NCBI GenBank assembly: GCA_023954135.1
Contig: JAMLIN010000006.1
Span: 62,001 to 126,000, forward strand
Direction of reading: 5' to 3'
Origin: Burkholderiaceae bacterium
Lineage (GTDB): Bacteria > Pseudomonadota > Gammaproteobacteria > Burkholderiales > Burkholderiaceae_E
Length of the DNA: 64,000 bases
The translations under genes were made by a program, and so were the position numbers. The notes under the pieces were generated by a model. That model ran no database searches. It was given only the letters and a program-made list of their open reading frames with translations, and was not told the DNA's origin. This document shows positions 7,131-53,170 of this stretch, piece after piece. Position 1 is the first letter of the stretch; each line of letters starts with the position of its first letter.

Positions 7131-7232
7131 ATCATACGGATTCGCCTTCAACCGTATAACCGCGTTGGGTCGCCTTGCCGTGCAATCGCACTGTCTGCGG
7201 CTCCCCGCCTTGTTCTACGATCGAATGCGAAC
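7131..7232 (-). repeat. Family A dispersed structured repeat, copy A1
   Basis: About 100 bases between the convergent receiver and kinase genes. The conserved core is on the minus strand (7161-7211): reversed it reads GGCGGGG, GCAGACAGT, the inner hairpin GTGC-GATT-GCAC (plus-strand span 7180-7191), then GGCAAGG and CCCAACGCGG. The outer arms (ATACGGATTCG near 7134 and CGAACCCGTAT near 7227) are partly complementary. It matches A2-A5 elsewhere in the window. Confidence 0.85.
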
Positions 7233-7237
7233 CCGTA

Positions 7238-9979
7238 TCAGGCGCGCAGGGCCTGCCCGGCGCCGGCCTGCGCCGGCGCGACCGGCAGCATCACGCGGAA
7301 GCAGGCACCCGGCAGGACGCCGCGGGCGAGCTCCACCGTACCGTCGAGCTTGCCGATGATGTTCCGCGAGATGTTCAGCCCCAGGCCGAGGCCTCGCGAG
7401 CCGGTCGCCGCCCCCGGCTCGGCACGGATGAACTTCTCGAATATCGAGCTGCGATACTGGAGCGGGATTCCGGGGCCGTTGTCGGATATCTCGACGATGT
7501 ACATGCCGTCGACGACCCGGGATGCGATGTTCACCCGCGGCTCGGCCGCATCGTTGTACGAGATCGCATTCGAGATGATGTTGATGAAGACCTGGCTGAG
7601 CCGGCCGGCGTCCGCCAGCACGATCGCGCTGCCGGCCCGCGGGCCGTTCTCGATCACGACGAACCGCTTGCGGGCGATCGCCTCGCAGACCATGGCCGCC
7701 TGATCGAGCACCTCCTCGGCGTCGACCGGAACGTTCTCCCAGCCGCGCTCGCCCTGCTCGAGCGCGCTCAGGTCGAGAATGTCGTCGAGCAGGCGGGTCA
7801 GCCGCACGCTTTCGTTGTGGATCGTCGTGATGAAGCGCTGGCGCTGCGCCGGCGGGAGATCGTCGACCGAGAGCAGGATCTCGGCGAACGAACGGATCGA
7901 GGTCATCGGCGTGCGCACCTCATGGCTGACCTGCGACAGGAAATCGTCCTTCTGCCGATGCAGCTCCTGCAGCAAGGCATTGGCTTCCTGGAGCTTCTGC
8001 GCGGCGGTGTGCAGCTCCTGCGACTTCATCTCGAGCACATGCGAGTACTCGATTACCTGCTGGGTCTCGTCGGCGATCCGCATCACCTCCTCGAGCGACA
8101 CCGTGTCGCCGGCCAGCCCCTTGGTCAGCAGGATATGGGCCGAAGCCGAGCCGATCGACCCGGCCAGCTCGCGCTCGAGCCTCGCGATGAATCCGGGGGA
8201 GACATCCCGCTGCCATGCCCTCGTCCCCCGCGACAGGCCGGCCGATTCGAACAGGGATCGCGCGCGGTTCCATCCGAGCACCCGCTCGGCGACGTAGAAG
8301 AGCTCGCGGGTCGTGGTCGATCCGCGGATCACCTGGGGCTGCAGCGAGGCGCCGCGCCGGAACACGTCGACGAAGAGCGCCGCCTGGATCCGCTCCAGGA
8401 CGCTCCGGCTGGTGGCCACGGAAACGCAGAGCAGCGCCGCGGTGTTGAGGAGCAGGCTCCAGAAGACGGCGTGCACCAGGGGATCGACGCCCTCCATGCC
8501 GAACAGGGCCTGCGGGCGAAGCGCGTGGATGCCCCAGGGGCCTTCGTCGAGCAGCGACATCATCAGCGGACTGACCGAGGACAGCGAGGGCAGGAACAGG
8601 GTCCACGCCCAGACGACGAACCCGATGGATATGCCCGCGAGCGCGCCCCTGACGTTCGCGTTTCGCCAGTACAGGGCGGCCAGCATCGCTGGCAGCAGCT
8701 GGGCGACGCCGGCGAAGGAGATCAGCCCGATCTGCGCGAGCGCGGCCGAGGCCGACGTCAGCCGGAAGTACAGGAAGCCGAGCCCGAGCAGGCCCGCGAT
8801 GGAGATCCGCCGGCTGCGCAGCAGCAGGCGTGCGATGTCGTGCTCGCCCTCCTCGTGGCGGCGGCTTGCCCGGCGCAGCATCAGGGGAAGCACGACGTGG
8901 TTCGACACCATGATGGACAGGGCGATCGACGCCACGATGATCATCGAGGTGGCGCTCGAGAAACCGCCGATGAACACCAGCAGCGCCAGCGCATCCTGTC
9001 CCGCGACCATGGGCAGGGTCAGCACGAACATGTCGGGATTGGATCCGGCCGGCATGGTGGCGAGCCCATGGAGCGCGATCGGCATCGTGAAGATGCTCAT
9101 CAGCAGCATGTAGGCGGGGAAGGCCCAGCCGGCCGTGCGCAGGTGGTTCTCGTTCGAGTTCTCGACGACGGTGATCTGGAACTGTCGCGGCAGGCAGATC
9201 ACGGCGCAGGCCGACAGGAACAGCACGGCCACCCAGCGGCTGCCGAAGCCTTCGTTGGTCTGGATGTCGACGCCGGCCGCGACCGCGCGGGCATAGACAT
9301 CGCCGAAACCGTCGTTGGCGCCGTAGACGACGAAGACCCCTACGGCGAGCAGCGCGATCAGCTTGACGACCGCCTCGAAAGCGATCGCGGCGACCACCCC
9401 GAGGTGCTGCTCGCGCGCATCGACGTTGCGGGTTCCGAACAGGATCGTGAAGGCCGCGAGGACGACCGCGATGCCGAACGCCAGGGTGGCCTCGTCGAGC
9501 GCGGCGAGATGATCCTCCCCCGTCCCCCGGGTGACCGAGACGGCCTGGATCGACGCGGCGATCGCCTTGAGCTGCAGCGCGATGTAGGGCGTGACGACGA
9601 CCACCACGATCATGGTGACGAGCACCGCGAGCGCGTTCGACTTGCCGAAGCGCGACGACAGGAAGTCGGCGATCGAGGTGATGCGCTGGGAGTGACTGAT
9701 GCGGATCAGCTTGCGCAGGATGAACCACCAGGCAATGAAGACGAGCGACGGCCCCATGTAGATCGGCAGGAACTCGAGGCCGCGACGCGCGGCGGTGCCG
9801 GCCGCCCCGTAGAAGGTCCAGCTCGTGCAGTACACCGAGATCGAGAGCGTGTAGACGAGCGGCGAGCGAAGAAAGCCGACATGTCCCCGGGCCGAGAGGG
9901 CATCCGACGCATAGGCGAGCAGGAACAGCAGCCCGACATAGCCGATGGCCGTGAGAATGACGAAGTCGGGCGACAGCAT
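7238..9979 (-). CDS. Sodium:solute symporter-histidine kinase fusion (CbrA type)
   Basis: A 913-residue membrane sensor. Residues 1 to about 525 form an SLC5/SSS-like transporter domain with about a dozen hydrophobic helices. Residues about 555-645 resemble the STAC linker found in CbrA-type kinases, followed by a predicted coiled coil (645-678). The kinase has the H-box SHEVRTP (H686), N-box around N804 and G1 box DNGPGI (833-838). No PAS domain separates STAC from the H-box, unlike Pseudomonas CbrA. Family members couple or sense import of amino or carboxylic acids and tune carbon use. It is translationally coupled to the small membrane protein upstream (TGATG overlap), and the probable partner receiver is encoded convergently at 6748. 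Confidence 0.9.
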   Translation of the reverse strand: MLSPDFVILTAIGYVGLLFLLAYASDALSARGHVGFLRSPLVYTLSISVYCTSWTFYGAAGTAARRGLEFLPIYMGPSLVFIAWWFILRKLIRISHSQRITSIADFLSSRFGKSNALAVLVTMIVVVVVTPYIALQLKAIAASIQAVSVTRGTGEDHLAALDEATLAFGIAVVLAAFTILFGTRNVDAREQHLGVVAAIAFEAVVKLIALLAVGVFVVYGANDGFGDVYARAVAAGVDIQTNEGFGSRWVAVLFLSACAVICLPRQFQITVVENSNENHLRTAGWAFPAYMLLMSIFTMPIALHGLATMPAGSNPDMFVLTLPMVAGQDALALLVFIGGFSSATSMIIVASIALSIMVSNHVVLPLMLRRASRRHEEGEHDIARLLLRSRRISIAGLLGLGFLYFRLTSASAALAQIGLISFAGVAQLLPAMLAALYWRNANVRGALAGISIGFVVWAWTLFLPSLSSVSPLMMSLLDEGPWGIHALRPQALFGMEGVDPLVHAVFWSLLLNTAALLCVSVATSRSVLERIQAALFVDVFRRGASLQPQVIRGSTTTRELFYVAERVLGWNRARSLFESAGLSRGTRAWQRDVSPGFIARLERELAGSIGSASAHILLTKGLAGDTVSLEEVMRIADETQQVIEYSHVLEMKSQELHTAAQKLQEANALLQELHRQKDDFLSQVSHEVRTPMTSIRSFAEILLSVDDLPPAQRQRFITTIHNESVRLTRLLDDILDLSALEQGERGWENVPVDAEEVLDQAAMVCEAIARKRFVVIENGPRAGSAIVLADAGRLSQVFINIISNAISYNDAAEPRVNIASRVVDGMYIVEISDNGPGIPLQYRSSIFEKFIRAEPGAATGSRGLGLGLNISRNIIGKLDGTVELARGVLPGACFRVMLPVAPAQAGAGQALRA

Positions 9980-10290
9980 CAGTCGTCGCCAGCCAGCCTT
10001 TCGCTTCGTGGGCCGGGATCCGGGCCGGCCGGCGGCTGCTCGGCACCCGGCGCGAGCGGATCACTGAACGGCCGGCACCATGAGAGAACCAGGGTGCCGA
10101 CGATGATGAGCAACCAGACGGCGAAGAGGTAGAGGATCTCGAGCGGCAGGCCGAACAGGATCAGCCGCCTGCCGACGAACAGGTTGACCAGGGGCGGCAC
10201 CAGCAGCAGGGTGCCGAAGAAGGGCAGCAGGAAAGCCAGCTCTTCCCGGCCCGTCTGCTGTTCGGTGCCTGCCCGTTCGTCGGTCGTCAA
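9979..10290 (-). CDS. Small two-helix membrane protein, putative symporter small subunit
   Basis: A 103-residue protein with a charged N-terminus, two hydrophobic helices (about residues 21-40 and 50-72) and a Pro-rich hydrophilic tail. The pattern LLLVPPLVN ... LFGLPLEILY ... resembles the short DUF3311/DUF4212 proteins that sit next to SSS-family transporters. Its stop overlaps the start of the transporter-kinase by one base (TGATG), so the two are made together and probably form a complex. Exact Pfam family not certain. Confidence 0.7.
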   Translation of the reverse strand: MTTDERAGTEQQTGREELAFLLPFFGTLLLVPPLVNLFVGRRLILFGLPLEILYLFAVWLLIIVGTLVLSWCRPFSDPLAPGAEQPPAGPDPGPRSERLAGDD

Positions 10291-10315
10291 TGCCGCCCCC
10301 CTGAGCTTCGGCCGA

Positions 10316-11302
10316 TCAGATCGTCACGTTCGGCTCCACGCCAAGTCCCGCAAGCCGAGCCGCGGCTTCGTCCGCCATCCGTTCGACGATCCGTGCCGCG
10401 GGCTCGATGGAATCGATCAGGCCCGCGGCCTCCCCGAACCAGACCCCGGTGTTCTCCGGATCCCCGGCGGTGAAGGCCTGCCGGTAGCGCGGGCCTTCCA
10501 CCGCGACCTGGCGCTCCAGCTCCGCCTCGCGCCCGTGCCAGCGGTCGGTGAAGGCATTTCGCCGGATCCGGGCGCTGAACCCGCGCGGCCAGGGTATCTG
10601 GCGGGCGATGTCGGCCACCGCGGTGCGCAGCGTGCCGTCGCCGTCGGTTTCGAGGATGGCGCGGTGGTGTCCGTCGTGGACCAGGGCTTCCCTGGACGCC
10701 CACAGGCGGGTTCCGACCAGGACGCCATCGGCGCCGAGGGCGAGCGCTGCCGCCAGTCCCCGTCCATCGGCGATGCCGCCCGCCGCCAGCAGCAGCGTAT
10801 CGGGAGCATGCGCGGCGAGATGGTCGGCGACTTCGGGAACGAATGTCAGCGTCCCCCGCAGCGCGCCGTGTCCGCCCGCCTCCGAGCCTTGCGCGACGAC
10901 CACGTCGGCACCCACGTCCACGGCGTCCATCACATGGTCCATGTCCTGGCACTGGCAGATGACGCGCGCGCCGGCAGCGCGGATCTCGTCGACGAAGGGG
11001 CGCGGATCGCCGAAGGACAGCATGACCGCGGCCGGCCGATGCGCGAGCACGTCGGTCAGCATCGACGGCGACTTCCGCAGCGACCAGGTGATGAAGCCGA
11101 CCCCCACCCGCGCACCGGCAGCCGCCTCGAACTGCTCCTCGAGCCAGGAAGCATCGCCGTAGCCGCCACCGATCAATCCGAGCCCTCCGGCCCGGCTCAC
11201 CGCTGCCGCGAGAGCGCCGCCGGCGGCGAACGCCATGGGCGCCGAGACCACCGGGTGCCGCAGGCCGAGCACCTTGGTTAGTCGTGTCGAGAGTGTGGCC
11301 AT
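10316..11302 (-). CDS. Nitronate monooxygenase-like FMN enzyme
   Basis: A 328-residue TIM-barrel flavoprotein of the nitronate monooxygenase / 2-nitropropane dioxygenase family, which oxidises alkyl nitronates such as propionate-3-nitronate; many members have other or unknown substrates. Family motifs: N-terminal HPVVSAPMA, QGSEAGGH at the FMN phosphate site, and AAGGIADGRG followed by GADGVLVGTR. Start at ATG 11302, preceded by GGAG at suitable spacing; the upstream ATG 11338 would add an unrelated 12 residues. Encoded alone between the kinase operon and the decayed GNAT gene. Confidence 0.85.
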   Translation of the reverse strand: MATLSTRLTKVLGLRHPVVSAPMAFAAGGALAAAVSRAGGLGLIGGGYGDASWLEEQFEAAAGARVGVGFITWSLRKSPSMLTDVLAHRPAAVMLSFGDPRPFVDEIRAAGARVICQCQDMDHVMDAVDVGADVVVAQGSEAGGHGALRGTLTFVPEVADHLAAHAPDTLLLAAGGIADGRGLAAALALGADGVLVGTRLWASREALVHDGHHRAILETDGDGTLRTAVADIARQIPWPRGFSARIRRNAFTDRWHGREAELERQVAVEGPRYRQAFTAGDPENTGVWFGEAAGLIDSIEPAARIVERMADEAAARLAGLGVEPNVTI

Positions 11303-11360
11303 GGGTTCTCCGTTGATGTTCGGGACATTAGAGAACAACGCCCGCTATCGCGAGGAGGCT

Positions 11361-11783
11361 CTTCTCACTCGCCGAGAGCGCCTGTCGAGCCGCCTGAAGC
11401 CTGGCGCAAGCATTGGCATGGACGGCGTCTTCAGTATGCAAGGCTACTATGCAAAAGGCGGCTTCGTCTTTTCCCACCGGGACTTGCGTTTTCGCACCGA
11501 GATCGCTGACTCGCCGACGGACCTGCCTGCGAGCAGCCGGCACATCGTTCCGCTTGCGGACGCGCCTTTCGAGCAGATCCTCGACTATGATCGGAGCTGC
11601 TTTCCCGCCAGCCGCGCGAAGTTTCTGAAAGCGTGGATCTCCCAATCCGACGCTCTTGCGCTTGGCTACCTGCACGATGAAAGCATGACCGAGGTTTTCG
11701 GTTGCGCACGGATGTATCTGGGAACCCCGCCGGTCTTGCGCCACGAACGGATCTTCGGGGTCACGACTTTCGAGTTCGGGTGA
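11361..11783 (+). pseudogene. Decayed GNAT acetyltransferase gene (YitH-like)
   Basis: The frame reads like the middle of a YitH-type GNAT acetyltransferase: IGMDGVFSMQGYYAKGGF, then DYDRSCFPASRAKFLKAW. After SDALALGY it jumps straight to the family's C-terminal end (CARMYLGTPP, then RIFGVTTFEFG). Intact relatives have a first acetyltransferase domain of roughly 80-100 residues before this point and about 90 residues between the two blocks. Both are missing here, so the gene is truncated at the 5' end and internally deleted in frame. No start codon with a ribosome-binding site is seen. Judged non-functional. Confidence 0.7.
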
Positions 11784-11867
11784 TCCCTGAATCGAGCAAT
11801 GGCGCGGCTTGCGACCCATTGCGGACACACGGTGGCCGACAGGCCCAAGATTCCGGCCAGCTTCGGG

Positions 11868-11873
11868 TACAAT
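11868..11873 (+). promoter_or_regulatory. Probable -10 element of the tRNA-Ser promoter
   Basis: TACAAT lies 37 bases before the mature tRNA 5' end. The -35 region is not close to consensus. Confidence 0.45.
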
Positions 11874-11910
11874 GCGCCCCGAGCCGGCATCGAGAGCAAT
11901 CTTGAAGCCA

Positions 11911-12004
11911 GGAGACGTGGCCGAGAGGTCGAAGGCACTCCCCTGCTAAGGGAGCATGCGGGCCAAAACCTGCATCGAGGGTTCGAATCCCTCCGTCTCC
12001 GCCA
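11911..12004 (+). tRNA. tRNA-Ser (anticodon GCU), CCA encoded
   Basis: A 94-nt tRNA with a class II long variable arm, as expected for serine. Acceptor strands GGAGACG (11911-11917) and CGTCTCC (11994-12000) pair perfectly, followed by discriminator G and encoded CCA (12002-12004). The anticodon loop CTGCTAA sits between CTCCC and GGGAG, giving anticodon GCT (11945-11947), which reads AGC/AGU. The T-loop GGTTCGAATCC is canonical. Confidence 0.97.
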
Positions 12005-12012
12005 AACAACTG

Positions 12013-12039
12013 CGCCCGCGATAGCGGGCGTTGTTGTTT
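12013..12039 (+). terminator. Intrinsic terminator of tRNA-Ser
   Basis: A 7-bp GC stem (CGCCCGC at 12013-12019, GCGGGCG at 12024-12030) with GATA loop is followed by TTGTTGTTT. It starts 8 bases after the encoded CCA. Confidence 0.85.
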
Positions 12040-12118
12040 GGCGGGGACAGCACAGCGCCTGCGCGCTGTGCGCGAGGGATTCGAAGGGGAAAAGGCCGGG
12101 TTTCCCCGGAGTCCCCTT

Positions 12119-13375
12119 TCAGACGATCTCCTGCTCCAGCCCGAAGGCCTTGTGCAGCGCCCGGACCGCGAGCTCCATGTACTTGTCGGCGATCACCACC
12201 GAGATCTTGATCTCCGATGTCGAGATCATCTGGATGTTGATGCCTTCCTCGTACAGGGTGCGGAACATCTCGCTCGCCACGCCCGCGTGCGAGCGCATCC
12301 CGATGCCGACCGCCGAGACCTTGCAGATGTCCGGGTCGCCGACGATCTCGCCGGTTCCGAGCGGACCGCGGACCTCGCGCTCCATGATCTCGAGGGTACG
12401 CTTGTACTCGGAGTGCGGCACCGTGAAGGAAAAGTCCGTCATGCCGCCGACCGACTGGTTCTGGATGATGACGTCGACGTCGATGTTCGCCGCCGCGATG
12501 GGCCCGAGGATCTGGAAGGCGATCCCCGGCCGGTCGGGCACGTGCATGACGGTGATCTTGGCGGCGTCGCGGCTGAACGCGATGCCCGATATGACGGCCT
12601 TTTCCATGTTCTCGTCTTCCTCGAATGTGATCAGGGTTCCCGAGGCAGCCTCTTCCTCGACCGGGATGTCCGGCGGGGTCAGGCTCGACAGGACCCGGGT
12701 CCGCACCTGGTACTTGCCGGCGAACTCGACCGAACGGATCTGCAGGACCTTCGAGCCGAGGCTCGCCATCTCGAGCATCTCCTCGAAGGTGATGCGCGCG
12801 AGGCGCCGTGCGTCCGGGACCACCCGCGGATCGGTGGTGTAGACGCCGTCGACATCGGTGAAGATCAGGCATTCCGCGGCGCCCATCGCCGCGGCGACCG
12901 CCACCGCCGAAGTATCCGATCCGCCGCGGCCCAGGGTCGTGATGTTGCCGTTCGGATCCACGCCCTGGAATCCGGTCACGATGACCACCCGGCCGGCGGT
13001 GAGCTCCGCCCGGATGCGGCTGTCGTCGATCGATTCGATCCGTGCCTTGCCGTAGGCATCATCGGTGCGCACCGGCACCTGCCAGCCGGTGAAGCTCACC
13101 GCATCGATGCCGACCGACTGCAGCGCGATCGCGAGCAGCCCGACCGAGACCTGCTCGCCGGTGGAAGCGATCATGTCGAGCTCGCGCCGCGACGGGGCTT
13201 CGCTGATCTCGTGGGCGAGGCCGAGCAGGCGATTGGTCTCGCCCGACATCGCCGAGGGTACGACGACGACCTGGTGCCCGGCGCGATGCCACTTGGCGAC
13301 GCGTTCGGCGACATTGCGGATGCGCTCGACCGAGCCCATCGAAGTGCCGCCGTACTTGTGGACGATGAGGGACAT
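12119..13375 (-). CDS. lysC: Aspartate kinase
   Basis: Catalyses ATP-dependent phosphorylation of L-aspartate, the first step toward lysine, threonine, methionine and diaminopimelate. 418 residues from ATG 13375, where the protein begins with the family signature HKYGGTSMGS; an upstream ATG at 13441 would add 22 unrelated residues. The N-terminal amino acid kinase domain (RGGSDTSAVA, FTDVDGVYTTDPR) is followed by two ACT domains typical of lysine/threonine feedback-controlled aspartokinases. dapA, the next branch enzyme, lies about 20 kb away. Encoded at the end of the cysS / glycosylase / accA / tilS / lysC stretch. Confidence 0.97.
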   Translation of the reverse strand: MSLIVHKYGGTSMGSVERIRNVAERVAKWHRAGHQVVVVPSAMSGETNRLLGLAHEISEAPSRRELDMIASTGEQVSVGLLAIALQSVGIDAVSFTGWQVPVRTDDAYGKARIESIDDSRIRAELTAGRVVIVTGFQGVDPNGNITTLGRGGSDTSAVAVAAAMGAAECLIFTDVDGVYTTDPRVVPDARRLARITFEEMLEMASLGSKVLQIRSVEFAGKYQVRTRVLSSLTPPDIPVEEEAASGTLITFEEDENMEKAVISGIAFSRDAAKITVMHVPDRPGIAFQILGPIAAANIDVDVIIQNQSVGGMTDFSFTVPHSEYKRTLEIMEREVRGPLGTGEIVGDPDICKVSAVGIGMRSHAGVASEMFRTLYEEGINIQMISTSEIKISVVIADKYMELAVRALHKAFGLEQEIV

Positions 13376-13465
13376 GGCGTGTGATTTCCGGCTTGCGCAC
13401 GCCGCCCCGCCCTCGCGAGGACACGGCGGCAAAACATTCAATTATAGGAGATGCGGCCGCCCGCT

Positions 13466-14855
13466 TCAGGAGGCGTCCGGGCCTGCGCAAAGAAAGCGCC
13501 GGCGCGGGTCGTCCGCGGCGCGCGGCTCGAAGCGCAGCCCGACGCCGGCCGAGCCGCCGCCGCCGGAAGCCGCCACCGCGTTCCCGTCGACGTTACAGCC
13601 GAAACCGGCCGCGTACACCACCCGGCCGTCGATCTCCACCACCGGCAGGCCCGTCCGCAGCCAGGGCGGCACCGCCCGCTCCTGCCAGAGATTCTTCAGG
13701 GTCCGCGACGGCCGGCCGGCAACGGTGCGCAGGCGATCGCCGGCACGGGCACGGCGGACCAGCAGGGGCCGCGACCTCAGCCAGTCGGCCGGCAGCGGTC
13801 CGCCCGGCACGATGCGCAGCCGGGCATCATGGTCCGGCAACGCGAGATCCGGCTCCCCCTGCCAGTGCCAGCGGATCTCGCCCGGCGTGGCGTCGATCCC
13901 GCCCCGCTCGATCCAGACCGAGTCGCGATAGCGGCATAGCCATGCGCCGGCATGCGGCAGGCGCAGCGGCGGCGCGCCGGCCGCACCGAGCTGGCGCCGC
14001 CAGTCGGCCAGCCGCGCCGCGCTGGGCGCCGGGAGGCCCTGCCCGTCGACCCAGGCGCGCAGCACCAGGGCATGGCGGGCGTCGGACAGGCCGGCCAGCC
14101 CGCGAGCATCGAGCCGGCCGTCGGCATCGACCAGCCTGTCGAGCTCCTCGGCGGCAATCCCGGCGAGCAGGGCCCGGGCTTCGGCGAGATGCCCGATCGC
14201 ACGCATCGCCCCGACACGGAAGCCCGGCATCGCCGCCTCGAGCGCCGGCAGGGCCTGATGGCGCAGGGCATTGCGCGCGAACCGGCAGTCGCCGTTGGAA
14301 GGGTCCTGGACGAATTCGAGGCCACGGGCGCGGGCATGGGCCTCGAGCGCGATGCGCGGCAGCGCCAGCAGCGGGCGATGCAGGCCGCGCTCGGCCGGAT
14401 GGGCGGACGCCATCGCGGCGAGCCCGCGGGGCCCGGCGCCGCGCCCGAGGGCGATCAGCAGGGTCTCGACCTGGTCGTCGGCATGATGGGCGCAGGAGAC
14501 CAGATCGCAGCCGGCATCCGTCGCGATACGGTCCAGCGCGGCGTAGCGGGCCCTGCGGGCCCAGGCCTCGACGCTGTCGCCGGCCGCCGGCATGCCGTCG
14601 AGCCGGTGGGAGGTCGCATCGACACCGATCGCCCTCGCCCGCTCGGCGACGAACCGCGCCCAGCGCCCGGACCCGGGCTGCAGCGCGTGGTCGACATGGC
14701 CGACATGGAGCCGCTCCGGAGGGACGAGACCCGCCAGGGCGTCGAGCAACACCATCGAATCGAGCCCGCCGCTCACCGCCACCAGGATGCGCCGCCCGGC
14801 CGCTGGCCCGGCCAGCCAGCCGACCAGGGTATCGACTACCGCCGAAGCGCCCGTG

Positions 14856-14884
<29 letters not shown>
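13466..14884 (-). CDS. tilS: tRNA(Ile)-lysidine synthase
   Basis: Modifies C34 of the tRNA-Ile CAU anticodon to lysidine, using ATP and lysine, so that the tRNA reads AUA and is charged with isoleucine. 472 residues. The N-terminal N-type ATP pyrophosphatase P-loop SGGLDS is at residues 38-43, followed by [10 protein letters not shown]. The middle and C-terminal TilS domains are present ([14 protein letters not shown]). The start overlaps the 3' end of accA by 29 bases, which suggests coupling with accA. Confidence 0.95.
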
Positions 14885-15817
<933 letters not shown>

Positions 15818-15821
<4 letters not shown>

Positions 15822-16438
15822 CGATTCTCCACCGGCAGCGGATCGAGGCAGCGCCACATGTACCAGGTGGCCAGGCTTCGCCACGGGCGCCAGCGCTCGC
15901 CGATGGCCAGTGCCTCGCTGCGCGTCGGGACCATGCCGTCCGTGTAGTTGCGGGCGATTCCGCGCAGCAATCCGACATCATCGACCGGAAAGACATCCGG
16001 CCGGTGCAGATTGAATATCAAAAGCATCTCGGCTGTCCAGCGACCGACGCCCCGCACCCGACTGAGCTCGGCGACCAGCTCGTCGTCGTCCAGCCCCGCC
16101 CAGCGCGCCGGATCGACCTCGCCGCTGGCGAAGCGGGCGGCGAGATCCTTGAGGTATTCGGCCTTGCGTGCCGACAGGCCGCAATCGCGCAGGGTGGCGA
16201 TGCGCATCCGCGATATCCGGTCCGGGTCGACCCTGCGGGCGCGCGCCACGACCCGGCCCCAGACCGCCTGGGCGGCGGCCACGGAGATCTGCTGGCCGAC
16301 GATCGAGCGGGCGAGCGTCTGGAAGGGATCGCCGCGCTGGACGATATGGCCCGGCCCGCACTCGCCCATGACCCGTGCCAGCGTCGGATCACGGGCGGCC
16401 AGCGCGAGGCCCGCCTCGTCCCACCACGGTGGCTTCAT
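15818..16438 (-). CDS. DNA-3-methyladenine glycosylase II-like (AlkA family, HhH-GPD)
   Basis: Base-excision repair glycosylase that removes alkylated purines. 206 residues with the HhH-GPD fold: [11 protein letters not shown] near residue 46, the helix-hairpin-helix [14 protein letters not shown] and the catalytic Asp in FPVDDVGL. It has only the HhH core, not the N-terminal domain of E. coli AlkA, and is close in size to the short AlkA2/Mag types. Start ATG 16438 lies 28 bases after the cysS stop; its stop overlaps the accA start. Confidence 0.9.
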
Positions 16439-16466
16439 CGAAGCGCTCCGGGACCGGCGACCGCCG

Positions 16467-17897
16467 TCATTGGCGGCGCCATGTGGTGCCGGCCGCCGAA
16501 TCCTCGAGCACGATGCCCTGCTGCGCGAGATCGTCGCGAATCCGGTCGGCGAGCGCGAAGTCGCGCGACTTCTTGGCGGCGGCACGCTCGGCGATGGCCG
16601 CGGCGATGGCGGCATCGTCGGGACCGCTGGCGGTGACGGCATCGGCGCCGAGCAGGCCCGATCGCCTCACTTCGTGCGGATCGCGCCCGAGCAGGCCGAG
16701 ATGGCCGGCCAGGCGACGCAGCTCCTGCTCGAGGCCGGCATCGGGCTGGCGATTGAGCTCGGCCGCCATCTCGAAGAGCACGGCGAGCGCGACCGGGGTA
16801 TTGAAGTCGTCGTCCATCGCCTCGCGAAACCGCTCGGCGAAACCGCCGACGGACGCCGCGGAACCCGCCGTATCGACGTTCGCGGCACCAGCCGCGCCCT
16901 GCTGTCCGAGGGCGTTGTACAGGCGCAGCAGCGAAGCGCGCGCATCCTCGAGATGGGCATCCGAATAGTTGAGCGGGCTGCGGTAGTGCGCCCGCAGGAT
17001 GAACAGGCGCAGCACCTCGGGGTCGAAGCGGCGCAGGACGTCGCGCACGGTGAAGAAGTTGCCGAGCGACTTCGACATCTTCTCGTCGTCGATCCGCACG
17101 AAGCCGTTGTGGATCCAGTAGTTGACGAAGCGCCCCTCGCGACCGTGGAAATTGGCGCCCTCGCTCTGCGCGATCTCGTTCTCGTGGTGCGGGAACTGCA
17201 GGTCGGCGCCGCCGCCATGGATGTCGAGCGTCTCGCCCAGCAGGGTGGTCGCCATCGCCGAGCACTCGATATGCCAGCCGGGCCGCCCGGGACCGAGCTT
17301 CGATGCCCAGGTGGCATCGGCCGGCTCGTCCGCCTTGGCCGCCTTCCAGAGCACGAAATCGAGCGGATCCTGCTTGCCCGCATCGACCGCCACCCGCTCG
17401 CCGGCGCGCAGGTCGTCGAGCGACTTCCCGGAAAGCCGGCCGTAGCGCGGAAAGCGCCGCACCGCGAAATTGACGTCGCCGTTGTCGGCCTGGTAGGCGA
17501 GTTCGTTCTCGCGCAGGCGCTCGATCATCGCCAGCATCTGCGGGACGTGGTCGGTGGCGCGGGGCTCGAAGTCGGGCCGCTCGACGCCCAGCGCGGCCTC
17601 GTCCTCGTGCATCGCGGCGATGAAGCGATCGGTGAGCGAGCGGATCGACTCGTTGTTCTCGACCGCCCGGCGGATGATCTTGTCCTCGATGTCGGTGACG
17701 TTGCGCACGTAGCGCACTTCGTAGCCGCTTGCCCGCAGCCAGCGCTGGATCATGTCGAACACGACCAGGACCCGGGCATGGCCGATGTGGCAATAGTCGT
17801 AGACGGTCATGCCGCAGACGTACATGCGCACCCGCCCCGGCTCGATCGGCTCGAACACTTCCTTGCGGCGGGATTCGGTATTGTGGATTCGGAGCAT
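16467..17897 (-). CDS. cysS: Cysteine-tRNA ligase
   Basis: Charges tRNA-Cys. 476 residues, usual length. Zinc-ligand Cys28 lies in MYVCGMT, HIGH is at residues 37-40 and KMSKS at 273-277. The [10 protein letters not shown] and [10 protein letters not shown] motifs of the active site are intact. It is probably the first gene of the minus-strand run cysS / alkA-like / accA / tilS, with the TPR gene divergent at 18090. Confidence 0.97.
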
Positions 17898-18083: not shown

Positions 18084-18089
18084 GCCGCC

Positions 18090-20930: not shown

Positions 20931-20984
20931 CGTCAGTTCTCCCTCTGTGGCCCCCGGCTGGTCCGGCGGGCCCGCTCATCATTT

Positions 20985-21094
20985 CACACGGGTTCGCATT
21001 CGATTGCAGGACAAGGCGGGGCGCCGAAGACAGTGCGCTTGCACGGCAAGGCGTCCCAACGCGGTCATGCGATCGAATGCGGATCCGTATCAGT
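20985..21094 (+). repeat. Family A dispersed structured repeat, copy A2
   Basis: Lies between prpF-like and cysE, both on the minus strand, and is the only copy not between convergent genes. The core at 21013-21064 shows GGCGGGGCGCC, AGACAGT, inner hairpin GTGC-GCTT-GCAC (21033-21044), GGCAAGG and CCCAACGCGG. The outer arms ACGGGTTCGCATTCGAT (from 20988) and ATCGAATGCGGATCCGT (from 21072) are nearly perfect reverse complements. Confidence 0.88.
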
Positions 21095-21106
21095 GTAGGC
21101 GCGGTC

Positions 21107-28403: not shown

Positions 28404-28420
28404 GTAACCGCACCAATTCA

Positions 28421-28523
28421 TCCTGGCCCGGATTCGAGTGCAGGGCAAGGCGGGGCGCCGCAGACAGTACGGTTGTACGGCAAGGTGCCCCAACGCGGCC
28501 ATGTGCTCGAATCCGGGCCAGGA
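28421..28523 (+). repeat. Family A dispersed structured repeat, copy A3
   Basis: Lies between the convergent mutS and slyD, ending exactly at the slyD stop codon. The outer arms are a perfect 18-bp inverted repeat (28421-28438 and 28506-28523; TCCTGGCCCGGATTCGAG). The core 28446-28500 has GGCGGGGCGCC, GCAGACAGT, inner hairpin GTAC-GGTT-GTAC (28467-28478), GGCAAGG and CCCAACGCGG. Confidence 0.9.
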
Positions 28524-29006
28524 TCAGTGGCCCCAGCGGGCGCGTTCGGTGTCAATTTCCTCTTCGGTCGCCGGCCGCAGGCCGGTGATCTCGAGATCGA
28601 AGCGGATCGCGATCCCGGCCAGCGGATGGTTGCCGTCGACCACAACCGTGTCGCCGGCGATGTCCGTCACCGTGTAGATCCGGCCGTCGGGCGCTTCGCC
28701 CGGGATGCCCTCGAAATCCATGCCGATCTCGAGCGCCTCGGGGAAGCGCTCGCGGGCGGCGATGTGCAGCAGTTCCGGATCGTAATCGCCGAAGGCATCC
28801 TCGGGCTCGAGATAGGCCGATACCTTCTCGCCGGCGTGCCGGCCCTCGAGGAGCTCCTCGATCTTCGGGAACAGGTGCCCGAACCCGCCGTGCAGGTAGG
28901 TCTCCTCGCGGTCATGGTCCTCGAGAGCCTGGGCGGTCGAGTCGTACAGCCGGTAGCGCAGCGACACCCAGCGCCCTTCGCACACGACGTCGTCGGATTC
29001 CTGCAT
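28524..29006 (-). CDS. slyD: SlyD-type FKBP peptidyl-prolyl isomerase
   Basis: Cytoplasmic prolyl isomerase/chaperone, 160 residues. The FKBP core (VSLRYRLYDS at the start, GFGHLFPKIEELLEG) is split by an IF (insert-in-flap) chaperone domain (EDAFGDYDPELLHIAARE). The C-terminus is short and lacks the His/Cys-rich metal-binding tail of E. coli SlyD, as in many betaproteobacterial homologues. Start ATG 29006 is the only reasonable choice. Confidence 0.9.
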   Translation of the reverse strand: MQESDDVVCEGRWVSLRYRLYDSTAQALEDHDREETYLHGGFGHLFPKIEELLEGRHAGEKVSAYLEPEDAFGDYDPELLHIAARERFPEALEIGMDFEGIPGEAPDGRIYTVTDIAGDTVVVDGNHPLAGIAIRFDLEITGLRPATEEEIDTERARWGH

Positions 29007-42163: not shown

Positions 42164-42189
42164 CCCGTGATTATCCCCGGAGGAACGCG

Positions 42190-42720: not shown

Positions 42721-42725
42721 GATAT

Positions 42726-42870: not shown

Positions 42871-42871
42871 G

Positions 42872-43783: not shown

Positions 43784-43793
43784 AAGAAGGCGG

Positions 43794-43965
43794 ACGGCGT
43801 CGCCGTCGGGCGCACGGGGTCGAGCCGGGAATTCGCGAAGCACTGCTTCGCGCCGGCGAGACCGGCCGCGCCTGCGAGCGCGGCCGAAAGGCGGGGCGAC
43901 GCAGACAGTACGGTTGTACGGCAAGGAAGCCCCAACGCGGCCATGCGCCCGAAGGCGTCGCCGTC
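43794..43965 (+). repeat. Family A structured repeat, copy A4 (long form with family C inside)
   Basis: Lies between convergent hslO and ftsB. Outer arms ACGGCGTCGCCGTCGGGCGCA (43794-43814, one base trimmed) and TGCGCCCGAAGGCGTCGCC (from 43943) are largely complementary. Family C occupies 43815-43885. The core 43888-43942 has GGCGGGGCG, GCAGACAGT, inner hairpin GTAC-GGTT-GTAC (43908-43919), GGCAAGG and CCCAACGCGG. Confidence 0.85.
43815..43885 (+). repeat. Family C two-hairpin module, copy C2
   Basis: Hairpins CGCGAAGC-ACT-GCTTCGCG and GGCCGCGC-n6-GCGCGGCC. It is inverted relative to C1 on the other side of hslO and sits between the left arm and the core of A4. Confidence 0.87.
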
Positions 43966-43966
43966 G

Positions 43967-44287
43967 TCAGCGCCCGGCGTCGGCGGTCTGTATCCGGGTG
44001 CCGCCGCTGGATTCGCCGGCCTGGTTGATCTGCACGAAGACCTCGCCACGCCCCACCATGCCGAGGTCGTAGCGGGCGCGTTCCTCGACCGCCTGGCGCC
44101 CCTCGGCGAGGTCGCGCAGCTCGGCCTCGAGCCCGGCGTTGTGGACCGACATCCGGGCATTGGTCTGCTGCTGCTCGGCGAGCTGACCGCTCAGGCGCCA
44201 TACCTCGCGCCAGCCCCGCTCGCCGAACCAGAGCGGATACTGGATCGCGACCAGGAGCGCGCACAGCACGAGCGTCAGGGGGCGCAT
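43967..44287 (-). CDS. ftsB: Cell division protein FtsB
   Basis: Bitopic membrane protein of the divisome, forming a complex with FtsL and FtsQ. 106 residues from ATG 44287. One N-terminal transmembrane helix (TLVLCALLVAIQYPLWFG), a periplasmic coiled coil (SGQLAEQQQTNARMSVHNAG) and the conserved VEERARYDLGMVGRGEVFVQ end. The frame upstream of 44287 runs through eno and is spurious. It follows eno by 14 bases, the classical eno-ftsB pairing. Confidence 0.94.
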   Translation of the reverse strand: MRPLTLVLCALLVAIQYPLWFGERGWREVWRLSGQLAEQQQTNARMSVHNAGLEAELRDLAEGRQAVEERARYDLGMVGRGEVFVQINQAGESSGGTRIQTADAGR

Positions 44288-44301
44288 CGCTTCGATCACG
44301 C

Positions 44302-46576
<2,275 letters not shown>

Positions 46577-46640
46577 CGTCGGATCTCCGGACGCTGCTAC
46601 ACCGCGCCAAGGGTCGGAACCCGTGCGTGGCACGGCTTCC

Positions 46641-48482
<1,842 letters not shown>

Positions 48483-48483
48483 T

Positions 48484-48489
48484 TATAAT
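48484..48489 (+). promoter_or_regulatory. -10 element of the scoA promoter
   Basis: A perfect TATAAT lies 37 bases before the scoA ATG. The -35 region is GC-rich and not recognisable, so an activator may be needed. Confidence 0.5.
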
Positions 48490-48526
48490 CCCTCATCGCC
48501 ACCCGCCCCAGCTAGCGAGGTTTTCC

Positions 48527-49228
48527 ATGAGCAAGGTCTACCCGAACGCCACCAGCGCGCTGGCCGACGTCGTTGCCGACGGCCAGATGATCGCCGTCGG
48601 CGGATTCGGCCTTTGCGGCATCCCCGAGGCCCTGATCGCCGGCCTGCGCGATTCGGGCGTCAAGAACCTGACCTGCGTGTCGAACAACGCCGGCGTCGAC
48701 GATTTCGGACTCGGCCTGCTGCTCCAGAGCCGCCAGGTCCGCAAGATGATCGCGAGCTACGTGGGCGAGAACAAGGAGTTCGAGCGCCAGTACCTGAGCG
48801 GCGAGCTCGAGCTGGAATTCACTCCCCAGGGCACGCTGGCCGAGAAGCTGCGCGCCGGCGGCGCCGGCATTCCGGCCTTCTTCACCCGCACCGGCTACGG
48901 CACCCTGGTCGCCGAAGGCAAGGAAACCCGCGAGTTCGACGGGCACATGTACGTCATGGAACGCTCGCTCGTGCCCGACGTCTCCCTCGTCAAGGCCTGG
49001 ATGGCCGACGAGTCGGGCAACCTGGTGTTCCGGCGCACCGCGCGCAACTTCAATCCCAACGTGGCGATGGCCGGCAAGGTGTGCATTGCCGAGGTCGAGG
49101 TGATCGTGCCCACCGGCGAGATCGACCCCGACCACGTCCACCTGCCCGGCATCTACGTGCACCGGATCGTGCACAACCCGGCGCCGGAAAAACGCATCGA
49201 ACAGCGCACCACGCGCCCGACCCGCTGA
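48527..49228 (+). CDS. scoA: 3-oxoacid CoA-transferase subunit A
   Basis: Alpha subunit of a succinyl-CoA:3-ketoacid CoA transferase (ScoA/PcaI family), moving CoA from succinyl-CoA to acetoacetate or 3-oxoadipate. 233 residues. Motifs: [20 protein letters not shown], then [12 protein letters not shown] and [15 protein letters not shown]. The start ATG 48527 gives the family N-terminus; the ORF upstream is spurious. scoB follows 10 bases later. Confidence 0.95.
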
Positions 49229-49238
49229 GGAGATCGTC

Positions 49239-49892
49239 ATGCCCTGGACCCGTGACCAGATGGCCGCCCGCGCCGCCAAGGAACTGCGCGACGGCTTCTA
49301 CGTGAATCTCGGCATCGGCCTGCCGACCCTCGTCGCCAACTATGTCCCCGAGGGCATGGAGGTCTGGCTGCAGAGCGAGAACGGCCTGCTCGGGATCGGC
49401 CCCTTCCCGACCGAGGACGAGGTCGACCCCGACCTGATCAACGCCGGCAAGCAGACCGTCACCACCCTGCCCGGCTCGTCGATCTTCGCGAGCGCCGACT
49501 CCTTCGCGATGATCCGCGGCGGCAAGATCAACCTCGCCATCCTCGGCGCGATGCAGGTCAGCGCGAAAGGCGACCTCGCCAACTGGATGATCCCGGGCAA
49601 GATGGTCAAGGGCATGGGCGGGGCGATGGACCTCGTCGGCGGCGTCGGACGCGTGCTGGTCCTGATGGAGCACACCGCCCGCAAGAAGGACGGCACCGAG
49701 GATTTCAAGATCCTGCCCGAGTGCAACCTGCCGCTCACCGGCGTGGGGGTCGTCAACGAGATCATCACCGATCTCGGCGTGCTCGAGGTCGCACCCACCG
49801 GCCTGCGTCTGGTCGAGCTTGCGCCGGGCGTCACGGCCGAGGAACTGCAGAGCAAGACCGGCTGCCCGGTCGACGTCAGCGCCTTCGCCTGA
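49239..49892 (+). CDS. scoB: 3-oxoacid CoA-transferase subunit B
   Basis: Beta subunit partner of scoA, 217 residues. The catalytic Glu is in the family motif [10 protein letters not shown], and [25 protein letters not shown] and [12 protein letters not shown] are typical. Together with scoA it would enable ketone-body or 3-oxoacid breakdown and recycling of acetoacetate from polyhydroxybutyrate; specific substrate not proven. Confidence 0.95.
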
Positions 49893-49931
49893 ACGTGCCT
49901 CTCGTCCGGGCCATACGGCCCGGGCGGCCCG

Positions 49932-50366
49932 CTAGATCAGAGGCTTCAGAACGATCTCGCGCACCCAATCGGGCAGCGGAGCCGATCTCTTCTCCGGGAA
50001 ATTCACCCAGACGACCGTGGCGCCGCCCCGGGCGCAGATGCGATCGGGTTCGTCGCTTCGGCTCATCTCGGTCACCGTCTCGACGGTCGACCGGCCGATT
50101 CGGCCGACCAGCAACCGGGCCCGGACGGTGCCGGGATAACGCATCTCGTGCATGAAGCTGCAGTGGGCATTGACGATGACCGGCCCCTCGCCGCCGGGAT
50201 CGGGCGAGAACCCGAGCCGGCCGAACCAGTCGATCCGCAGCTGCTCCATGTAGGTGAAGTACACCGCGTTGTTGACATGGCCCATCGCGTCCATGTCACC
50301 CCAGCGGATCGGCAACTCGATCTCGAGCACCGGGACCGGATCGAACTGTGCCGCTTCTTCGTTCAT
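49932..50366 (-). CDS. 4HBT-family acyl-CoA thioesterase
   Basis: 144-residue hotdog-fold thioesterase. The 4-hydroxybenzoyl-CoA thioesterase signature is RWGDMDAMGHVNNAVYFTYMEQ (about residues 21-42), including the catalytic Asp. Likely hydrolyses acyl-CoA or acyl-ACP esters as a housekeeping or pathway-linked enzyme. On the minus strand, followed by the SDR gene upstream in transcription order (36 bases apart), in a neighbourhood of acyl-CoA enzymes. Confidence 0.88.
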   Translation of the reverse strand: MNEEAAQFDPVPVLEIELPIRWGDMDAMGHVNNAVYFTYMEQLRIDWFGRLGFSPDPGGEGPVIVNAHCSFMHEMRYPGTVRARLLVGRIGRSTVETVTEMSRSDEPDRICARGGATVVWVNFPEKRSAPLPDWVREIVLKPLI

Positions 50367-50402
50367 GTCGTCATGCCCCCCGCATGAGCCCGGCCACCGG
50401 CG

Positions 50403-51176
50403 CTAGATCGCGAACCCGTCGTCGGCCGCGATCACCGCGCCGTTGATGAATCCGGAGCGCCCGGACGCGAGCAGCACCAGCAGGCCGTCGAGATCCTCGG
50501 GATCGCCGACGCGCCGGCGCGGCAGCATCGCGACCAGGCGCCGCCCGCCCTCGGTTTCCCAGTGGGCGTCGTTGAGCTCGGTACGGATGTACCCCGGGCA
50601 GATCGCGTTGACATTGATGCCGTAGCGCCCCCACTCGAGCGCCATCGCCCGGGTCATGTGGACCACCGCCGCCTTGCTCATGGCGTAGATGCCGATCTGC
50701 GCGAGCGCCTTGAGCCCCGCCATCGACGCGACGTTGATGATCCGCGCCTCGCGGCCCGGCTGCGATTTCGCACGCTCGACCATCCGGCGACCGACCGCCT
50801 GGGCGACGAAGAACGCCCCCTTCAGATTGGTATCCATGACGAAGTCGAAATCCGCTGCCGTGACATCGAGCAGGCGCTGGGTGGTGCTCACGCCGGAGTT
50901 GTTGACAAGGATATCGATCGGCCCCGCCTGTTCCTCGGCGGCCGCGATCGCCGCGTCGATCGCGCCGGTATCGGTGACGTCGAGCGCGAGCACGCTCGCC
51001 GCCCCGCCGGCCGCCTCGATGGCGGCGCGCAGTTCCTTGAGCCGCTCCACACGACGCGAAGCGAGCACCACATGCGCGCCATTCTCGGCAAGAACGGTCG
51101 CGAACCGGGCTCCCAGCCCGCTCGAAGCGCCGGTGACCAGCGCTGTCTTGCCGGTGAGATCGAATGAGGTCGCCAT
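50403..51176 (-). CDS. Short-chain dehydrogenase/reductase
   Basis: 257 residues from ATG 51176; longer upstream frames are spurious. Classical SDR: NAD(P)-binding TGASSGLG, structural NNSG motif (usually NNAG), active-site Ser in INVASMAG and YxxxK in YAMSK, followed by NAICPGYIRTEL. Oxidises or reduces a hydroxyl/keto group, perhaps a hydroxyacyl-CoA given its neighbours (CoA transferase, ETF-QO, thioesterase). Substrate unknown. Confidence 0.92.
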   Translation of the reverse strand: MATSFDLTGKTALVTGASSGLGARFATVLAENGAHVVLASRRVERLKELRAAIEAAGGAASVLALDVTDTGAIDAAIAAAEEQAGPIDILVNNSGVSTTQRLLDVTAADFDFVMDTNLKGAFFVAQAVGRRMVERAKSQPGREARIINVASMAGLKALAQIGIYAMSKAAVVHMTRAMALEWGRYGINVNAICPGYIRTELNDAHWETEGGRRLVAMLPRRRVGDPEDLDGLLVLLASGRSGFINGAVIAADDGFAI

Positions 51177-51240
51177 GCGCGTCTCCGGTTCCGTCTGTCT
51201 GTCAACTCCGATGGCGTGGATCATAGCCGATCGATCCGAT

Positions 51241-51270
51241 TTGGACGGGCGCGGCGGTTTCCGCGACAAT
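51241..51270 (+). promoter_or_regulatory. Candidate promoter of ETF-QO
   Basis: TTGGAC (51241-51246) and GACAAT (51265-51270) are separated by 18 bases, 70 bases before the ETF-QO start. Both hexamers are imperfect. Confidence 0.4.
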
Positions 51271-51339
51271 TGCACGATCCGACACCCGGGGTGCCCGCCG
51301 CCCCGCGAATGCGCAGCGCCCTGACCCTGGAGACGCCTC

Positions 51340-52992
51340 ATGGAAATTGAACGCGACGCGATGGAGTTCGACGTCGTCATCGTCGGCGGTGGCCCGGCCG
51401 GCCTCGCGGCGGCGATCCGGCTCAAGCAGCTCGAAGCAGAGCACGGCCGCGAGGTCAGCGTCTGTGTCATCGAGAAGGGTTCGGAGATCGGCGCCCACAT
51501 CCTGTCGGGGGCGGTCATGGATCCGGGCGCGATCAGCGAGCTCTTCCCGGACTGGAAGGAGCGCGGCGCTCCGCTCAACACGCCGGTCACCGAGGACCGC
51601 TTCGTATTCCTCAGTGCCACCGGTGGGCGCAGCACCCCCAACTGGATGCTGCCCGCCTGCTTCAAGAACCACGGCAACTACATCGTCAGCCTCGCCAACG
51701 TCGTGCGCTGGCTCGGCCAGCAGGCCGAGGAGCTCGGCATAGAGATCTACCCCGGCTTCGCCGCGGCCGAGATCCTGTATTCCGAGGACGGCGCGGTGCG
51801 CGGCGTGGCGACCGGCAACATGGGCGTAAGCCGTGAAGGCGAGCCCACCGACCAGTTCCAGCCCGGCATCGAGCTGCACGCGAAGTACACCCTCTTTGCC
51901 GAAGGCTCGCGCGGCCATCTCGGCCGCCAGCTCATCGCCCGCTACGAGCTCGCCCGCGACCGCGATCCGCAGAGCTACGGCATCGGCCTGAAGGAGCTCT
52001 GGGAGATCGACCCGGCCCGCCACGAGGAAGGCCTGGTGATGCACACCGCCGGCTGGCCGCTGTCGAACGACACCTATGGCGGCTCCTTCCTCTACCACTT
52101 CGAGAACAACCAGGTCGCAGTCGGCTTCGTCGTCGGTCTGAACTACACGAACCCCTACCTCTCGCCCTTCGACGAGTTCCAGCGCTACAAGACCCATCCA
52201 ATGATCCGGCGCTTCTTCGAGGGCGGCAAGCGGGTGGCCTATGGCGCCCGGGCGATCACCGCCGGCGGCCTCAATGCATTGCCGAAGACGGTGTTCCCGG
52301 GCGGCGCCCTCATCGGCTGCGAAGCCGGCTACCTGAACGCCTCGCGCATCAAGGGCAGCCATGCGGCGATCAAGACCGGGATGCTCGCCGCCGAAGCCGC
52401 CTTCGAGGCCCTGGGCGCCGATCGCTCCAACGATGTGCTCGAGTCGTACCCGAAGGCATTCGAATCGTCCTGGCTGCACGACGAGCTCTACCGGGCCCGC
52501 AACTTCAAGCCCGCGATGAGCAAGGGCCTCTGGATGGGCACCCTGCTCGTCGGCATCGACCAGGTCGTCTTCAAGGGCAAGGCGCCGTTCACCCTGCATA
52601 CCAGCAAGCCCGACAACGAGTACCTCAGGCCGGCTGCCGAATGCACCCCGATCGACTACCCGAAGCCCGACGGCAAGATCAGCTTCGACAAGCTCTCGTC
52701 GGTGTTCATCTCGAACACCAACCACGAGGAGAACCAGCCGATCCACCTGACCCTGAAGGATCAGTCGATCCCGGTGGACACCAACCTCGCCCGCTATGCC
52801 GGGCCGGAGCAACGCTACTGCCCGGCCGGCGTCTACGAGTTCGTGAAGGACGATGGCACCGGCGCCGATCGCCTGCAGATCAACGCCCAGAACTGCGTCC
52901 ACTGCAAGACCTGCGACATCAAGGACCCGACGCAGAACATCGTCTGGGTGGTTCCGGAAGGTGGGGGCGGCCCCAACTACCCGAACATGTGA
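51340..52992 (+). CDS. Electron transfer flavoprotein-ubiquinone oxidoreductase
   Basis: Membrane-associated FAD/4Fe-4S enzyme that passes electrons from electron-transfer flavoprotein, and so from acyl-CoA dehydrogenases, to ubiquinone. 550 residues. The N-terminal FAD site is VVIVGGGPAGLAAAI, the middle has FAEGSRGHLGRQL and LIGCEAGYLN, and the C-terminal cluster ligands lie in CPAGVYEF and CVHCKTCDIKDP. The family ends with PEGGGGPNYPNM, as here. ATG 51361 is an alternative start. Consistent with fatty acid oxidation genes in the window. Confidence 0.96.
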   Translation: MEIERDAMEFDVVIVGGGPAGLAAAIRLKQLEAEHGREVSVCVIEKGSEIGAHILSGAVMDPGAISELFPDWKERGAPLNTPVTEDRFVFLSATGGRSTPNWMLPACFKNHGNYIVSLANVVRWLGQQAEELGIEIYPGFAAAEILYSEDGAVRGVATGNMGVSREGEPTDQFQPGIELHAKYTLFAEGSRGHLGRQLIARYELARDRDPQSYGIGLKELWEIDPARHEEGLVMHTAGWPLSNDTYGGSFLYHFENNQVAVGFVVGLNYTNPYLSPFDEFQRYKTHPMIRRFFEGGKRVAYGARAITAGGLNALPKTVFPGGALIGCEAGYLNASRIKGSHAAIKTGMLAAEAAFEALGADRSNDVLESYPKAFESSWLHDELYRARNFKPAMSKGLWMGTLLVGIDQVVFKGKAPFTLHTSKPDNEYLRPAAECTPIDYPKPDGKISFDKLSSVFISNTNHEENQPIHLTLKDQSIPVDTNLARYAGPEQRYCPAGVYEFVKDDGTGADRLQINAQNCVHCKTCDIKDPTQNIVWVVPEGGGGPNYPNM

Positions 52993-53007
52993 CGCCAGCA
53001 TCGACGC

Positions 53008-53170
53008 GGCTTCGGATTCGGGTGCAGGAGTCGAGCCGGGAATTCGCGAAGCACCGCTTCGCGCCGGCGAGACCGGCCGCGCCTGCCAGCGCGGCCGTGG
53101 CGGGGCACTCCAGATACTGCGGTTGTACGGCAAGGAGCCCCAACGCAGCCATGCGCCTGAATCCGAAGCC
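53008..53170 (+). repeat. Family A structured repeat, copy A5 (long form with family C inside)
   Basis: Between convergent ETF-QO and the RRM gene. Outer arms GGCTTCGGATTCGGGTGCA (53008-53026) and TGCGCCTGAATCCGAAGCC (53152-53170) pair almost fully. The core 53098-53150 is more diverged than in the other copies and its inner hairpin is degraded (ATACTGCGGTTGTAC). Family C sits at the same inner position as in A4. Confidence 0.82.
53027..53097 (+). repeat. Family C two-hairpin module, copy C3
   Basis: Hairpins CGCGAAGC-ACC-GCTTCGCG and GGCCGCGC-n6-GCGCGGCC, nearly identical to C2 and, inverted, to C1. Confidence 0.87.

Follow-up and report, generated by a model that had tools for sequence, protein, structure and literature searches.

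A dispersed hairpin repeat in a Burkholderiaceae genome shares its core with Correia and BOX repeats and is probably a mobile element

For decades, work on the BOX repeats of Streptococcus and the Correia repeats of Neisseria has treated them as separate and genus-specific, and they have been reviewed together as miniature inverted-repeat transposable elements (MITEs). BOX has been described as having terminal inverted repeats, target duplications, enrichment between convergent genes and a hairpin fold (PMC3049150). Here we follow up five dispersed elements in a 64,000-nucleotide stretch of DNA from a Burkholderiaceae bacterium (assembly GCA_023954135.1, contig JAMLIN010000006.1, positions 62,001 to 126,000; hereafter the window), which a first-pass annotation had proposed as a candidate structured RNA. 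The element of this family, which we call family A, is about 103-105 bp long and folds end to end as one hairpin. We consider it likely that family A is a non-autonomous, MITE-like element of the BOX/Correia-type class that is moved in trans and carries a structured core. The 52-base core, of the type seen in the third window copy (A3), is common to Correia, BOX and other repeats, and consists of two conserved internal loops around a small hairpin, an arrangement found in Neisseria Correia and Streptococcus BOX alike. If this core is indeed shared, BOX and Correia would form one family with a common requirement.

The distribution of the core was followed in two ways. An exact core pattern, fixing 18 bases and half-fixing two, matched at least 116 stretches in GTDB genomes, and among the 80 matches listed there were five from Streptococcus, three from Clostridia and 72 with betaproteobacterial names. 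Positions outside the pattern are conserved too, with a C in 74 and a G in 76 of 78 cases. A covariance model of the 52-base core (R2, from 37 sequences kept out of 42 rows) gave a cross-taxon alignment in which 78.6% of cells are paired, against 18-41% in slid versions, and in which both sides have changed in 61 cells, compared with a mean of 25.5 in shuffles. Matches to R2 numbered 61 in a record of N. gonorrhoeae, 41 in Janthinobacterium LM6, 35 in Polaromonas P2-4, 19 in a metagenome-assembled genome (MAG) of Clostridia, 17 in Streptococcus SPS1 and 12 each in Pelomonas aquatica and a Cupriavidus megaplasmid; all seven records searched were thus positive, each having been chosen for holding a core match and five having contributed a sequence to the model. 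At four loci of the Clostridia MAG (L335, L340, L345 and L350, the last two assigned by sequence), the inner core lies within a longer, highly similar repeat that has no outer AAGGCG/CAACGC loop. The exact pattern also occurs on two viral contigs in IMG/VR (L243, L244).

The Neisseria copies are, judged by their TATAGTGGATTAA ends, probably Correia elements (CREE/NEMIS). They are like family A in length (about 105 bp), in forming a single long hairpin, in high copy number (the 61 R2 matches in one record) and in a core that reads AAGGCG .. GCCGCAGACAGTAC .. GTACGGCAAGG .. CAACGC, but their arms are of the TATAGTGGATTAA type whereas those of family A read TACGGSTTCG. Judged by sequence, family A is a relative of Correia and not a member, since its arms fail while the short-form core matches. 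The Streptococcus copies have TATACTC ends and are presumably BOX elements, an identification that draws in part on the text of the BOXA1R primer. Their boxA-boxC form has the same core in reverse-strand terms, including a BOXA1R-like stretch (GTACGGCAAGGCG..), and differs in having TACTC.. arms, a type of end that family A does not show, a boxB module and a Firmicutes host. By eye, the BOXA1R primer, as printed in PMC6232296, agrees with these copies at 20 of 22 bases. Correia elements also occur in a longer version that carries an internal module of 50 bp (PMC2229807), which can be likened to the insert variant of family A that is described below. By its published description, BRE, the beta-proteobacterial repeat element, is alike in being about 90 bp long and repeated in Comamonadaceae such as Polaromonas, Delftia and Acidovorax, and differs in its tandem arrays in Bordetella (PMC3110155). 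In the literature searched, which included PMC3049150, PMC3110155, PMC10969869 and PMC2229807, we found no link between Correia and BOX through a shared core; subscription papers lie largely outside that coverage, so an earlier mention is possible.

Family A has several of the features of a MITE. It is short, with terminal inverted repeats (103 bp, the arms pairing end to end); it has no transposase gene of its own because it is only about 103 bp long; and it is flanked by target-site duplications. Identical 3-mers border 11 of 47 full copies in this genome (eight TCA, three TGA), against a shuffle mean of 4.2 and a largest value of 9 in 2000 shuffles. In other taxa and relatives, where 73 of 87 copies were kept for the count, TNA repeats border 19 (11 TCA, seven TTA, one TAA; shuffle mean 4.2, largest 13 of 1000) under a boundary rule that was the third applied and was picked after a first had given 10 of 81 (shuffle mean 0.9) and a second, which overshot the arms, 0 of 82. 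Non-TNA 3-mers were not in excess at the same 73 copies (3 against 5.2). Within a Pelomonas genus, perfect repeats flank 10 of 12 copies (eight TCA, two TGA). In 11 of the 12 the element directly adjoins the TGA that closes an open frame of 139 codons or more, the frame being antisense to the element in eight cases and sense in three. One pair of sites is found filled and empty: TCA-element-TCA in the Pelomonas genus corresponds to a single TCA in a sister species, and the empty-site TCA is the TGA stop of a 472-codon frame. The direct 3-bp repeats and the filled and empty sites together show insertion.

The family is large. The pattern GACAGTN{3,12}CGGCAAGG has 53 matches genome-wide, against one for a reversed-pattern control, and a covariance model built from 30 full copies (R1) returned 106 rows with the best 150 of 5206 candidates scored. 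By our own count 75 of these rows are distinct places and the other 31 are antisense shadows of hairpins at those places. Some copies, A4 and A5 among them, are insert variants whose 5' arm carries an additional module some 70 bases long; the module of the longer Correia form probably sits elsewhere in the hairpin. Eight copies (L209-L216) lack the core hairpin and are 74 bases long, a length that would result if 35 bases were deleted between the two direct GGCAAGGCG repeats. Copies scored by R1 occur in 10 of 61 genomes, this one included, with 31 in one relative (G060) and 7 in another genome (G033), a patchy distribution that fits mobile repeats.

The hairpin itself appears to be maintained. 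The folds of A1 to A3 have z-scores of -6.5 to -8.3, equalled by none of 200 shuffles. In an ungapped alignment of 30 copies from across the genome both sides change in 23 of 38 pairs, and 93.0% of cells are paired against a shuffle mean of 84.6% and 28-40% in slid versions, so the covarying stems that had been proposed from the window copies hold in the wider family. The stems vary, but hardly any change is seen in the internal loops (CAAGGCG/CAACGC and GMAGACA/GGCAA). On one strand, G·U wobble pairs outnumber A·C mismatches by 100 to 10 in the 47 full copies, which are a subset of 63 entries chosen by arm pairing, a filter that favours G·U slightly. The ratio is 70 to 10 without a common wobble at columns 20-86, and 15 to 1 in the seven copies left after thinning to below 80% identity; G·U occurs in 21 of 36 pair columns and A·C in 9. 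An unfiltered recount of all 63 entries, out-of-register insert copies included, gave 114 to 62. In other taxa 73 copies gave 91 to 35, and the 19 copies whose ends were set by target repeats gave 25 to 6. This one-sided excess of wobble pairs suggests selection on how the strand bearing GCAGACAGT folds, whether as RNA or as single-stranded DNA. The earlier proposal of selection on RNA structure is in part supported by the covariation and the strand bias. A bias of this kind points to selection on a single-stranded form, and makes a step in the life of the element testable. As a separate observation, six Janthinobacterium genomes (L090, L107, L116, L118, L137, L144) hold a copy at what is apparently the same insertion site; by eye, L118 and L107 differ by two compensated arm pairs and one uncompensated, and other comparisons were mixed.

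We propose that family A would insert at TNA, here TCA or TGA, duplicating the 3 bp, and that it might be moved in trans by a DDE transposase, perhaps of IS5 type, acting on the arms. The core could then work as folded RNA or single-stranded DNA in the life cycle of the element, and not for the host. Some IS5 groups would be in keeping with a TNA target of 3 bp. When 41 bases from an arm of the relative Eleftheria were used as query, 32 plasmid records matched, most of them weakly. The Pandoraea match is the end of an IS5-family element; its 21 bases have an inverted counterpart, identical at 20 of 21 positions, at a distance of 0.85 kb, and the two enclose the transposase gene; a match in Xanthomonas translucens also lies at an IS5-family gene (inverted at 15 of 19), and the Sphaerotilus match had no IS5-family gene there. 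The resemblance of the Eleftheria arms to IS5-family ends, at 20 of 21 bases for Pandoraea, is no more than suggestive. The window's own arm type differs in that no such insertion sequence was found for it in the searches given below.

Several observations weigh against this interpretation. As regards the mobiliser, the Eleftheria-Pandoraea match has an E value of 6 on its own, and three of the 32 records were examined, two with an IS5-family gene and one without. No insertion sequence with matching ends was seen in the genome itself among the best 100 of 112 arm matches (control 14), eight solitary ones having been examined; the accompanying transposase search, for PF01609 only in an assembly of 116 contigs, gave two DDE_Tnp_1 loci, whose ends lay outside the comparison. 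None was evident among 24 of 26 arm matches examined in Pelomonas, and on plasmids neither the arm of the window copies nor any of three further arm types led to an insertion sequence, one 18-base cyanobacterial match having no transposase annotated. Since neither the window arm type nor Pelomonas yielded a matching insertion sequence, IS5-type mobilisation is something that we infer. As regards insertion, a perfect 3-bp repeat is kept in only 11 of the 47 copies here, a few bases directly upstream also differ at the empty site, and the ends of Correia look by eye like a TA and not a TNA target. As regards the core, the 18 fixed and two half-fixed bases were set by the search, so kinship rests on the remaining positions and on architecture; two of five cross-taxon covariation measures did not rise above shuffles (7 pairs with changes on both sides where shuffles gave 6.2, and 21 pair types where they gave 20.3); wobble was not in excess among the 12 inner pairs compared between taxa, where the helix register varies (G·U 26, A·C 34); and R2 matched in 5 of 274 genomes of the class sample, this one included, with at most the best 21 candidates scored per genome.

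A single-stranded-DNA mobile element, whose folded strand is acted on by a structure-reading enzyme of the HUH or tyrosine type, would account for the strand-specific wobble bias, for the conserved internal loops and for arms that are free to vary provided that they pair. In the relative G060 (L283-L302), 20 of the 31 copies were tested, and 17 of these have the folded strand on the C-rich strand (p 0.004), as do all seven convergent copies in a set of 24. In the present genome the same bias is weak (22 of 52 positive, p 0.05), and the positions of the copies in Janthinobacterium LM6, judged by eye with the origin assumed at position 1, do not show it. The 3-bp target duplication and insertion-sequence-like ends point instead to a DDE enzyme; we regard this alternative as unlikely. 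The G060 strand counts suggest a replication-strand bias that is clear in that relative only.

Gene settings were assigned with our own gene caller for 63 of 103 scan matches, low-scoring and intragenic ones, including A4, having been removed and locus L202 being counted as two entries. Thirty-nine of the 63 lie between convergent genes, 16 between tandem genes in antisense, seven between tandem genes in sense and one at a contig edge; the 61 gene pairs of the window comprise 12 convergent, 13 divergent and 36 tandem pairs. The end of the right arm is flush with an opposite-strand stop codon (23-25 bases past the core segment) in 26 of the 39 convergent and 12 of the 16 tandem-antisense entries. 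The window contains 47 TGA stops besides 80 T[CG]A sites in intergenic DNA, so that random choice among them would put about 37% of copies at a stop; the excess could in part be due to selection against insertion elsewhere. When the 3-bp duplication falls at TGA, the stop codon of the gene stays intact on insertion, and a target that duplicates a stop codon is a simple reason for the crowding of such repeats at gene ends. The placement at 3' ends and the share of convergent settings (39 of 63 entries against 12 of 61 window pairs) would also be expected, as would the covariation and one-strand wobble bias, if the hairpin were a host-serving RNA (a small RNA, a bidirectional terminator or a stabiliser of the 3' untranslated region) selected at gene ends. 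The favoured strand is however antisense in 16 and sense in seven of the tandem pairs (p 0.09), the reverse of a 3' untranslated region role, and these counts lend no support to such a role or to that of a terminator. With the direct repeats and the filled and empty sites showing insertion, and with R1 copies in only 10 of 61 genomes, we think a host RNA improbable.

Near-perfect arms that differ between copies could in principle be kept paired by template switching during replication (palindrome correction) and not by selection on the fold. Such correction predicts no strand bias, and the asymmetry between G·U and A·C (100:10 in full copies, 114:62 unfiltered, 25:6 in copies anchored by target repeats) argues against its being the full explanation and leaves it very improbable. 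Identity with the Betaproteobacteria toxic small RNA RF02278, which had been suggested as a possibility, can be dismissed as virtually without chance: it shares the bacterial class, and this genome does hold a true copy (62.6 bits, L001:1501-1565), but that copy, GATGTCTCCTCCACC.. with a terminator, is unrelated to family A in sequence and none of the five window copies scored, which refutes the suggestion at the level of sequence and covariance model. A second RF02278 match, in L002, is below the cut-off; with the best 150 of 264 candidates scored, two matches in the genome had an E value below 0.01 and neither was family A. At Rfam gathering scores the window gave only one tRNA. When E values up to 5 were allowed, a single match overlapped a copy, a weak one to p27_CRE (26.2 bits, cut-off 42, E 0.37) that lies within the additional module of A4. 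Seventeen related loci gave no Rfam match over the element and two matches elsewhere.

Returning to family A as a mobile element, a broader scheme is conceivable, to which we would give somewhat less than an even chance. BOX, Correia and the betaproteobacterial repeats may be one ancient, cross-phylum family of mobile hairpins, in which the single-strand fold of the core is needed for spread, the outer arms are swapped to match the resident transposase and a 3-bp TGA target allows harmless landing on stop codons.

The five window copies (Table 1) lie within a few bases of where they had first been placed. In agreement with the first description, A1 and A2 have GTGC/GCAC as their inner hairpin and A3 and A4 have GTAC/GTAC; that of A5 is broken or decayed. 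The outer arms, said to differ completely between copies, in fact share a consensus (about ACGGSTTCGSATTCG), from which they vary and covary. By our gene calls all five are at gene 3' ends and four of them are between convergent genes, again in line with the first-pass annotation. Pfam matches were obtained for nine of the ten adjoining genes, whose functions are unrelated. The TGA at 7238-7240 beside A1 is the stop codon of a minus-strand sensor-kinase gene. A2 sits between tandem minus-strand genes (PrpF-like and serine-acetyltransferase-like) and is antisense to both. A3, the best-paired copy, has mutS on one flank, and its second TCA is the stop codon of a minus-strand gene at 28524-29006 on the other. 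A4 is flanked by an hsp33 gene and by one of DivIC type, which ends with its stop at 43967-43969, and A5 by genes for an ETF-ubiquinone oxidoreductase and an RRM protein. The A4 module is also present in A5 and other copies.

Table 1. Copies of family A in the window and their parts
Feature	Position	Strand	Description
Copy A1	7135..7237	minus	103 bp; direct repeats TGA at 7238-7240 and 7132-7134
Copy A2	20987..21089	plus	103 bp; direct repeats TCA at 20984-20986 and 21090-21092
Copy A3	28421..28523	plus	103 bp; direct repeats TCA at 28418-28420 and 28524-28526
Conserved core in A3	28445..28496	plus	52 bases: AAGGCG .. GCAGACAGTAC .. GTACGGCAAGG .. CAACGC
Copy A4	about 43793-43965	plus	insert variant; arms 43793-43817 and 43941-43965
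A4 extra module	43818..43886	plus	about 69 bases, two small hairpins by eye; boundaries by eye
Copy A5	about 53006-53172	plus	insert variant; arms 53006-53026 and 53152-53172
A5 extra module	53027..53097	plus	about 71 bases, related to A4 module; boundaries by eye

Two further settings were seen outside the window. The copies at L017 and L057 have identical right flanks (ATCAGTGGCGCCCGGCCGCCC..) and different left flanks, as if they lay in or beside another dispersed repeat, and in a Burkholderiaceae MAG a 6S RNA gene (L105:5191-5369) stands directly upstream of an element copy.

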